NCBI GenBank assembly: GCA_002280405.1
Contig: NCDY01000041.1
Span: 1 to 37,544, forward strand
Length of the DNA stretch: 37,544 bases
Direction: 5' to 3'
Origin: Rhodobacterales bacterium 32-66-9
GTDB lineage: Bacteria; Pseudomonadota; Alphaproteobacteria; Rhodobacterales; Rhodobacteraceae
Shown here: positions 17,990-22,234 of the stretch, piece after piece
How positions within the stretch are numbered: position 1 is the stretch's first letter
Layout of the letters: each line of letters starts with the position of its first letter
Notes under the pieces: model-generated
Told to the model about the DNA's origin: nothing
Seen by the model: the letters and a program-made list of their open reading frames with translations, nothing else
The model's database searches: none
Translations under genes and position numbers: made by a program

Positions 17990-18049
17990 CGTAGGGTGGG
18001 GTTCAACCCCACCTGTTCCTGCAACGGTGGGGTTGAACCCCACCCTACG
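17990..18049. repeat. Paired GTAG-type REP elements (BIME-like)
   Basis: Two 24-base arms (17990-18013 and 18026-18049) are perfect inverted copies around a 12-base loop. Each arm begins with C-GTAG and then a palindrome GGTGGGGTT-C-AACCCCACC of its own. GTAG followed by a hairpin is the known signature of REP sequences mobilised by RAYT transposases; two in opposite orientation make a BIME. It fills the gap between binding-protein and ATPase genes and ends 8 bases before the ATPase ATG. Confidence 0.85.
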
Positions 18050-18057
18050 GATACTCC

Positions 18058-18897
18058 ATGACCCCCGCTGTCGAATTTTCCAACGTCTCCCGCCATTTCG
18101 GCCCCGTGCGCGCCGTCGATGACGTGGACCTGACCATTGCCGAGGGGTCCTTCTTCGCCATGCTCGGCCCCTCCGGGTCGGGCAAGACCACCTGCCTGCG
18201 GCTGATCTCGGGGTTCGAGAAGCCCACCGGCGGCACGATCCGCATCTTCGGCGAGGATGTGTCGGCCACCCCGCCGCATCTGCGCAACGTGAACACGGTC
18301 TTTCAGGACTACGCGCTGTTCCCGCACATGCAACGGGTCGCGCTGGCCCGGGCGCTGGTGAACGAGCCCCGCGTTCTTCTGCTTGACGAACCCCTGGGCG
18401 CGCTGGACCTGAAGCTGCGCGAAGCGATGCAGGACGAACTCAAGGCCTTGCAGAAGCGTCTGGGGCTGACCTTCGTCTTCGTCACCCACGACCAGCACGA
18501 GGCGCTGTCGATGGCCGACAGCCTTGCCGTGTTCAACGAAGGCAGGATCGCCCAGATCGGCACGCCGCAGGACATCTACGACCGCCCCGCCACCCGGTTT
18601 GTCGCCGATTTCGTCGGCTCCTCGAACGTCCTGCCCCCCGACATGACGCGCAGCCTTGGCGGACCCGCGCAATGGGCAAGCCTGCGCCCGGAGGCGACCC
18701 GCCTGGCCGCCACGGGCCCGCTGAGCGGCACGGTCACCGCGCTGCGCTATCTGGGGTCCGGCACCCGCGTGCTGATCGACGCGAACGGCACCGAGATCGC
18801 CGCCATGGTCCCCGCAGGCGAGCCGGTTCCGGCCGAGGGGGCCGTGACCGCCATCGCCTTCGAGCCCTCGGCCCTGCACCTGATGGGGGCCAGTTGA
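18058..18897 (+). CDS. Polyamine-type ABC transporter ATPase lacking the signature segment
   Basis: The nucleotide-binding subunit of the transporter, PotA/YdcT-like, 279 residues instead of the usual ~330-360. Walker A (GPSGSGKTT, 37-45), the Q-loop ([11 protein letters not shown], ending at residue 91), Walker B (LLLDEP with Asp110-Glu111), the D-loop (GALD) and the switch His144 (FVTHDQHEA) are all present, as is the C-terminal TOBE domain. But residue 91 is followed at once by QRVALARAL; the ~50 residues that normally lie between, comprising the helical subdomain and the LSGGQ signature, are absent. The frame is preserved (junction at 18330/18331). Without the signature such a subunit should not hydrolyse ATP normally. 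It could be a recent deletion or an assembly collapse. The ribosome site is poor because the REP pair ends just upstream. Confidence 0.85.
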
Positions 18898-19037
18898 TGC
18901 GCCGAGCCTTTGCACATTTCATGTCCGCAAATATCCCCGCCGGAGGCTCCGCACTCTCCACCCCACGCAATGCCCGGCATGGAAGCGCCCGGAATCTTTG
19001 CTTCAAGATCTTTGCCGGTCGAAGGGCGCGCGGATGA
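18897..19037 (+). CDS. Possible 46-residue small ORF within the ABC operon
   Basis: The ATPase stop and an ATG overlap as TGATG at 18895-18899; that ATG opens a 46-codon frame whose TGA overlaps the ATG of the first permease (ATGA at 19034-19037). The peptide ([17 protein letters not shown]...) resembles nothing known and is basic. It contains a dispersed-repeat segment at 18917-18947. The chain may simply carry ribosomes across an insertion rather than make a useful product. Confidence 0.25.
   Translation: MRRAFAHFMSANIPAGGSALSTPRNARHGSARNLCFKIFAGRRARG
18917..18947. repeat. Dispersed repeat segment, copy 1
   Basis: A 30-base stretch (18918-18947) centred on AAATATCCCCGCCGGAGGC that matches 23 of 30 positions, without gaps, with 31204-31233 in another operon. 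Sequences like this are familiar between genes in Rhodobacteraceae genomes. Confidence 0.5.
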
Positions 19038-19972
19038 CCCGCTCTGCGATCCTGCCCGCCCGTGGCCCCGCCGACCGGCTGACCGCGATCTTCTGGCGGC
19101 ATCCGCGTGTGCTGCTGGCGATCCTCCTCACCCCGCCGCTCGTCTGGCTTGGCGTGGTCTACCTCGGCTCCCTCGCCGCCCTCCTCCTCCAGTCCTTCTA
19201 TTCCATCGACGAATTCTCCGGCGTGGTGAAGGAAGAGTTCACCCTGAAGACCTACGGCGAGCTGCTGCGCCCGTCGAATTTCGACATCCTCGTCCGCACC
19301 GTCAGCATAGCCGCTGCGGTGACGCTGGCCTGCGCCATCCTCGCCTTCCCGGTTGCCTACTACGCCGCACGCTTTGCCAGGGGCCACTGGAAGGCGGCGT
19401 TCTACCTTGGCATCATGCTGCCTTTGTGGTCGAGCTACCTTGTCAAGGTCTATGCCTGGAAGCTGATCCTTGCCAAGGAGGGCATCCTCGGCTGGACCGC
19501 CGAACAGACCTATACCGGCTGGATCATCGACGGTCTCCTCTCGATCCCGGGGCTGGAGGGATCGTCGCTGTCGACTTCCCCCATCGGCACCTTCATGGTC
19601 TTCGTCTACATCTGGCTGCCCTACATGATCCTGCCGATGCAGGCCGCGCTGGAGCGGGTGCCGAATTCCATGCTGGAAGCCTCCGCCGACCTGGGTGCGA
19701 CGCGGGCGCAGACCTTTCGGACGGTGATCCTGCCCCTCGCCTTGCCGGGGGTCGTCGCCGGGTCGATCTTCACCTTCTCGCTGACGCTGGGAGACTACAT
19801 CATTCCCCAGATCATCGGCAATTCCGCGAACTTCATCGGCATGGCGGTCTATCAGCTGCAGGGCACCGCCGGGAACATCCCGCTGGCGGCGGCCTTCGCC
19901 GTGGTGCCGATCGGGATCATGCTGGTCTATCTTGGCCTTGCGCGGCGGATGGGGGCCTTCGATGCTCTCTGA
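19034..19972 (+). CDS. Polyamine-type ABC transporter permease (PotB/YdcU-like)
   Basis: A 312-residue inner-membrane permease with about six hydrophobic segments, the first at [20 protein letters not shown]. The cytoplasmic EAA loop that docks the ATPase reads [20 protein letters not shown], with the conserved Gly seven residues in. Features such as [18 protein letters not shown] and the large loop after the first segment place it with PotB/YdcU. The ATG at 19034 is chosen over an upstream ATG at 18998 from alignment with family N-termini. It overlaps the second permease by 11 bases. Confidence 0.92.
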
Positions 19973-20780
19973 CCGCTCGCCCCTTTCCCTCCGCGCCGCA
20001 GCCATTGGCGGGCTCCTGTTCCTGCACCTGCCGATCCTGCTGATCTTCCTCTATGCCTTCACCACCGAGGAGCGCAGCTTTCAGTTCCCGCCGCCCGGCC
20101 TGACAACGCAGTGGTTCGGCGTGGCCTGGAACGACCGGCCCGACATCTGGCCGCCTCTGTGGCTGTCGTTGAAGGTCGCGACCATTGCCACGGCCATCGC
20201 CCTTGTCCTTGGCACCCTCGCGGCCGCCGCGATGACCCGCAGCGCATTCTTCGGGCGCGACCAGATCAGCCTTCTGATCCTTCTGCCCATCGCGCTGCCC
20301 GGCGTCATCACCGGCATGGCGCTGCGGTCGGCCTTCGGGGTCATGGACATCCCGTTCAGCATCTGGACCATCGTGCTTGGCCATGCCACCTTCTGCATCG
20401 TCATCGTCCACAACAACGCCGTCGCCCGCCTGCGCCGCCTGTCCGGCGGCATCCTGGAGGCCAGCGCCGACCTTGGCGCGAACGCGTTCCAGACCTTCCG
20501 CCACGTCCTTTTGCCGAACATGGGCACCGCTCTTCTGGCCGGCGGGATGCTGGCCTTTGCCCTGTCTTTCGACGAGGTCATCGTCACCATCTTCACCGCC
20601 GGATCCGGCACCGGGTCCAAGACCCTGCCGATCTGGATGCTGGACGAGCTGATCCGCCCGCGACAGCGCCCGGTTACCAATGTCGTCGCCATCCTGGTCT
20701 TCGCGACCACATTCTTCCCCATCCTCGCAGCCTACTACCTGACCCGCGGCGGGTCCGAGACCGCCGGCATGGGCAAATAG
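19962..20780 (+). CDS. Polyamine-type ABC transporter permease (PotC/YdcV-like)
   Basis: A 272-residue inner-membrane permease with about six hydrophobic segments and the EAA loop [20 protein letters not shown]. PotC/YdcV features include [20 protein letters not shown] after the first membrane segment, [15 protein letters not shown] and [11 protein letters not shown]. The ATG at 19962 lies inside the end of the first permease gene, so the two are coupled. Together they would form the heterodimeric channel of the transporter. It ends 11 bases before the dehydrogenase ATG. Confidence 0.92.
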
Positions 20781-20791
20781 GGAGATTTCTC

Positions 20792-22234
20792 ATGGACACG
20801 CTGACCAAGATCGACACCGCCCTGCTGATCGGGTCCGGCTTCGAGGCCGGGCAGGAGGCGCGCGAGCCGATCCTGAACCCCCGCACCGGCGGGCTGATCC
20901 TGGAGGTGCCCGAAGCCTCGACCGCCCAGATCGACCGGGCGGTGGCCGCGGCGCGCAAGGCCTTCGAGGGCTGGTCGCGGACAACACCCGCCGAACGCTC
21001 GGCCGCGCTCCTTACCATCGCCGACCGGATCGAGGCCGAGGCGGATGCCTTCGCGGCCCTTGAGGCCTTGAACTGCGGCAAGCCGATCAATGCGGCCCGC
21101 AACGACGAAATGCCGGCGATCGTCGATTGCTTCCGCTACTTCGCGGGCGCGGTGCGCTGCATGACCGGCACAGTGGCGGGCGAGTATCTCAGCGGCCACA
21201 CCTCGATGATCCGCCGCGATCCGGTGGGGGTGGTGGCGAGCATCGCGCCCTGGAACTACCCCCTGATGATGATGGCCTGGAAGCTGGGCCCCGCCATCGG
21301 TGGCGGCAACACGGTGGTGTTCAAGCCCTCGGAACAGACTCCGCTCACCGCGCTGAAGCTGGCGCATATCCTGGCCGATGTCCTGCCGGACGGCGTGGTG
21401 TCGGTCGTGGCGGGGCGCGGCCAGACGGTGGGCAGCTACCTGATCAACCATCCGCAGGTGGACATGATCAGCCTGACCGGGGACGTGGCGACCGGCAAGA
21501 AGATGCTGGATGCCGCCGCCAAGACCGTGAAGCGCACGCATCTGGAACTGGGCGGCAAGGCCCCGGTGATCGTGTTCGACGATGCCGATGTGGGCGCGGT
21601 GGTCGAGGGGCTGCGGGCGTTCTCGTTCTACAACGCCGGTCAGGACTGCACCGCAGCCTGCCGGGTCTATGCCGGGAAGAAGGTCTACGACACGCTTGTC
21701 GCGGATCTCACCTCGGCGGCGTCGTCCATCGTTCTGGGGGCGGAGGACGACGCCACCAATGAAATCGGTCCGCTGATCAGCCAGCGCCAGCGCGACCGGG
21801 TGGCGAGCTTCGTCAACCGCGCGCGGGAGCTGAACCATGTTCAGGTCACGACGGGCGGCGAGGCGATGGACCAGGGCTTCTACTACCGCCCCACCGTCGT
21901 CGCCGGGGCCAAACAGGACGACGAGATCGTCCGGCGGGAGGTCTTCGGGCCGGTCGTGTCGGTCACCCCGTTCAGCGAGGTGGACGACGCGGTCACCTGG
22001 GCCAACGACAGCGACTACGGGCTGGCGAGTTCAGTCTGGACCCGCGACGTGGGCCGCGCGATGGCCACGGCGGCGCGGCTGCGCTACGGCTGCACCTGGA
22101 TCAACACGCATTTCATGCTGACCAACGAGATGCCGCATGGGGGCCTCAAGCAATCCGGCTACGGCAAGGACATGAGCGCCTATGCGCTGGAGGATTACAC
22201 CGTGGTTAGGCATGTGATGGTGAAGCATGGGTGA
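20792..22234 (+). CDS. patD: Aldehyde dehydrogenase, gamma-aminobutyraldehyde type (PatD/YdcW-like)
   Basis: A 480-residue NAD-dependent aldehyde dehydrogenase. The active site is complete: APWNYPL near the cofactor, general base Glu252 in LELGGKAP, nucleophile Cys286 in [11 protein letters not shown], and the C-terminal EVFGPVVSV and [10 protein letters not shown] segments. NAGQDCTAA and the overall length match 4-aminobutyraldehyde dehydrogenase PatD, which oxidises the aldehyde formed from putrescine to GABA. Being last in a polyamine-type transport operon supports this, but betaine-aldehyde or other amino-aldehyde substrates are possible. GGGAG precedes the ATG. Confidence 0.85.

Follow-up and report, generated by a model that had tools for sequence, protein, structure and literature searches.

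The window, the whole stretch of 37,544 nucleotides that was analysed, carries an operon in which genes for a YdcS-like binding protein and two permeases lie around ydcT, a gene for an ABC ATPase (Table 1). The operon is present even though the YdcS model is matched below its curated cut-off, and the genes flanking ydcT are intact. Alignment blocks between the window and stretches of four relatives (G015, G018, G020 and G022) were read through, and no other in-gene loss of this kind was noticed; the comparison covers part of the window and is at block level only. Outside of the feature described here, YdcT, its operon and its family are ordinary.

The intergenic region between the binding-protein gene and ydcT holds a near-perfect, two-arm palindrome of 60 bases (positions 17990-18049, GTAGGGTGGGGTT...). 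Its core, GGGGTT(C/G)AACCCC, has no second occurrence in the ~297 kb of this genome that were sampled, the window included. Between ydcT and the first permease (positions 18898-19045), the window has ~150 bases versus ~14 to 20 in G018 and G022. This region contains a AAATATCCC...GGAGGC motif that is found near the same locus in G020 and G015, too.

Table 1. Features of the window and of other contigs of the same draft assembly (columns: feature; position; strand; basis or remark).
YdcS-like substrate-binding protein, 385 aa	16823..17980	+	NCBIfam model over full length, 592.7 bits, below curated cut-off of 725; SBP_bac_8
ydcT-like ABC ATPase ORF as assembled, 279 aa, lacking 49 codons	18058..18897	+	translation, Pfam, NCBIfam, orthologues
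joint in ydcT, missing 147 bp	18330..18331	+	versus 24/24 same-genus orthologues; no Ns; at most 1 shared base
permease in the ydcU position, BPD_transp_1	18998..19972	+	ORF limits, putative start codon
permease in the ydcV position, BPD_transp_1	19932..20780	+	ORF limits, putative start codon
ORF with aldehyde dehydrogenase domain (residues 248-702)	20111..22234	+	downstream of the transporter genes
potA-like gene, 67 bp lost at the SGGQ region	L114:1120-2102 (contig C106)		frameshift
PotA-type ATPase, 114 bp lost including SGGQ and Walker B	L111:631-1626 (contig C27)		in frame
short-chain dehydrogenase split by a seamless loss of ~158 bp	L204:757-1366 (contig C177)		frameshift
N gap in uvrA, 25 N	L113:1000-1024 (contig C47)		67 bp in 5/6 relatives
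N gap in fabG, 52 N	L176:7016-7067 (contig C128)		172-197 in 6/6 relatives
N gap in tamB, 75 N	L178:8716-8790 (contig C20)		85 bp in 6/6 relatives

The ydcT frame is open over all of its 279 codons, and in its translation FPHM (residue 91, last base 18330) directly adjoins QRVALARAL. The Pfam profile ABC_tran is matched in two pieces only, with a hole between them: residues 21-91 correspond to profile positions 2-74 and contain the Walker A part, and the second piece, at positions 114-136, contains the Walker B part and the subsequent ATPase motifs. PotA-like NCBIfam models match the protein in two stretches with scores below their cut-offs. The PotA structure 8zx1 aligns with residues 91-193, and a C-terminal TOBE-type domain (TOBE_2) is found at residues 208-276. 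The Walker A part, Walker B part, TOBE_2 domain and polyamine-type importer operon are those of the YdcT/PotA-type ABC ATPases (PF00005 and PF08402; PotA structures 8zx1 and 8y5f). Unlike these ATPases, ydcT as assembled is without the helical subdomain and the LSGGQ signature. The original prediction had described this passage from FPHM to QRVALARAL and had put the loss at about 150 bases; the translation, Pfam and the orthologues bear out the first, and the comparison with orthologues sets the second at 147 bp.

The size of the loss follows from the relatives. All 24 same-genus genomes that were searched yielded an orthologue, and each has exactly 147 bases (49 codons) at the position where the window has none. 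The missing segment spans NVRDNVAYGL to LSGGQR, which is the helical subdomain and the signature. As judged from the relatives, the junction and the lost end have at most one base in common. The 147 bases are also present in 14 of 15 named loci, hand-picked from 80, and the fifteenth (L064) is masked at that point; three of the 14 (L031, L032 and L033) presumably duplicate the contigs of the relatives L004, L021 and L016. In G002 (L025), the 147 bases are present, but the frame ends early further downstream. A 69-aa probe from the G018 orthologue did not find the missing segment elsewhere in the window's own assembly. Its best match is a paralogue on contig C128 (66%), and a relocated segment was rejected. 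The missing helical subdomain and LSGGQ are most likely an assembly loss and no argument against a PotA/YdcT-type gene in the organism.

In ABC importers, the helical subdomain touches the permeases, and the ATP site of the partner ATPase is incomplete without LSGGQ. A YdcT that functions without its signature, for example as the partner of a full-length ATPase from elsewhere in the genome, would agree with the open ydcT frame and its otherwise intact motifs, and further PotA-type ATPases are present in the genome. Against such an ATPase stand these roles of the segment, its retention in all of the same-genus orthologues and its presence in the solved PotA chain 8zx1 (one alignment viewed of 126 matches), as does the frameshift in the potA-like gene on C106. 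We regard it as extremely improbable. The same very low probability is given to a broader version, in which several PotA-type ATPases of the lineage were together stripped of the segment with LSGGQ, and a full-length ATPase that is still present works for several importers or acts as the partner in mixed dimers.

The remaining part of ydcT has a pN/pS of 0.11-0.21 against four relatives. This is within the range of its neighbours (ydcS, 0.13-0.26; permeases, 0.09-0.32) and gives no sign of an old pseudogene, which was rejected as an explanation; several of these comparisons span part of a gene, up to the end of the fetched stretch. Because constraint on the rest of the gene is not relaxed, any real deletion would have to be very young. 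Such an event, in which the YdcSTUV-like importer was very recently inactivated by an in-frame deletion, either in the strain itself or in a fraction of the population sampled, is consistent with a clean and in-frame ydcT joint between intact flanking genes. It is also consistent with a missing piece that is nowhere else in the assembly, though an artefact predicts the same if the piece was never assembled.

The assembly is a draft of 177 contigs, is 81.5% complete and contains N gaps. Seamless losses of similar size are found in three further genes of this draft, on contigs C106, C27 and C177. A screen of the assembly with ABC_tran gave 95 rows and identified two further PotA-type ATPases that are broken internally. 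The orthologue of the potA-like gene on C106 is intact in 15 of 15 relatives, with the distance measured in six of them. The loss on C27 is based on one close orthologue from another genus (G129, 77% identical); a search of 15 same-genus genomes gave none at E <= 1e-40, which is stringent for a broken query. On C177, the dehydrogenase was compared to the structure 5u9p, where its first piece stops at residue 41 and its second restarts at residue 94; the ~158 bp are a hand calculation from this alignment. The short-chain dehydrogenases were chosen as a family after the gap in fabG had been seen. They gave 31 rows, about a dozen of them partial, and the cases on C128 and C177 were worked out. 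Stretches on C84 and C160 were checked for Ns only, and the rows at C156, C160, C162 and C170 are close to contig ends by their coordinates. The reading frame is kept in two of the four seamless losses, ydcT included, and broken in the other two, which is the expectation without selection on the losses, albeit at a small n of four. Four contigs (C135, C120, C45 and C168) start or stop within ABC ATPase genes (L117:1-225 and the ends of L112, L115 and L118).

Three N gaps were found, all within genes and all shorter than the sequence of the six relatives compared. Two came from 13 stretches of 20 kb, and the third was in a locus fetched for a weak ABC match. The names uvrA, fabG and tamB were given from reading the translations, and the dehydrogenase family of fabG was confirmed by a family search. 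The shortfalls are 42 bases in uvrA, ~122 in fabG and 10 in tamB. In uvrA, the sixth relative gave a measurement of -6, and its gene is itself disturbed. In fabG, the three relatives with a left anchor extending to the joint give 174. Ahead of the tamB gap, the frame (L178:8117-8713) starts with 39 to 56 residues that match none of the six relatives, whereas the remainder does; this may be another frame break upstream.

These findings weigh on the recent deletion. The genome would have to have suffered three more recent losses, each independent of the others, of which two shift the frame and one is in potA, and the N gaps show that sequence was lost at joints in this assembly. Together with the youth demanded by the constraint on ydcT, this makes a real deletion unlikely, though it is less remote than a working signature-less ATPase.

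Two relatives served as controls. In G015 (10 contigs), ABC_tran gives 118 rows, and six of these are clearly partial and low-scoring. By reading of the table, the six appear to be other ATPase types, and none of the 118 rows is a comparable broken transport ATPase. G018 (170 contigs) has 133 rows, several of them partial. At its loci L207-L214, several ABC ATPase genes are partial or split between frames, and the eight stretches fetched contain no Ns. Broken ABC genes are therefore not unique to the assembly of the window.

The missing middle of ydcT is best explained as an assembly artefact, a collapsed joint in the draft, to which the circumstantial evidence of the sequence comparisons leads us to assign a probability of about 0.93. 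The artefact is favoured by the three further seamless losses (67 to ~158 bp, two of them frameshifting) and by the three N gaps that are 10 to ~122 bases short. It is also favoured by the 147 bp found in 24 of 24 orthologues, the fragmented and incomplete state of the draft, a pN/pS of ydcT like that of its neighbours and the lack of a comparable break in G015. Of the three options offered by the original prediction, assembly collapse is upheld by the other losses and the short N gaps, a recent inactivating deletion is reduced to a minor rival, and substitution by a second ATPase is very unlikely.

Under a collapsed joint, the YdcT of the organism would most likely be ordinary and full-length, at about 328 aa. 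During assembly, two pieces with ends inside ydcT would have been placed directly next to each other on an estimated gap of at most zero, and the 147 bp of the helical subdomain and LSGGQ would have been dropped with no Ns in their place. The joint would stem from scaffolding in which gap sizes are underestimated. If gaps that are truly 67 to 158 bases long were estimated at zero or below, the pattern seen in ydcT, potA and the genes on C27 and C177 could result. Survival of the ydcT frame would then be by chance, at one in three.

Some observations count against the artefact. The ydcT joint is clean, in frame and without Ns. The SGGQ region of PotA-type ATPases is lost in three of the four seamless cases, a concentration that a model of random joints does not predict; this clustering may be due in part to the ABC genes being the first family screened. 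Identical sequence shared between paralogues could have caused the joints, but none was found there. With the ABC loci compared from the same assembly, ydcT shares at most 20 exact bases in a row, the C106 gene 22 and the C27 gene 18, and none of these stretches covers a joint. Repeat collapse through paralogue sharing is thus not supported, as judged on assembled sequence, from which the lost pieces are absent.

Chen et al. 2020 (PMC7111523) describe uncorrected local errors and gaps from scaffold joins in metagenome-derived genomes that lead to incomplete or incorrect protein-coding sequences in databases. The present case resembles those errors in that joints within several genes lack 67 to 174 bp. 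It differs in kind: the errors described there are Ns placed where pieces overlap and consensus unsupported by reads, whereas here a true gap would have been set to zero. The literature search found no paper on exactly this type of artefact, a collapsed joint as in ydcT.

A deletion in ydcT, if real, would be relevant to the question of whether ABC importers can work with no signature motif of their own. As a collapsed joint, ydcT is a caution that clean, in-frame losses without Ns lie inside conserved genes of this draft, most likely at scaffold joints. Because this draft contains such losses, claims of gene or domain loss drawn from it need read support.
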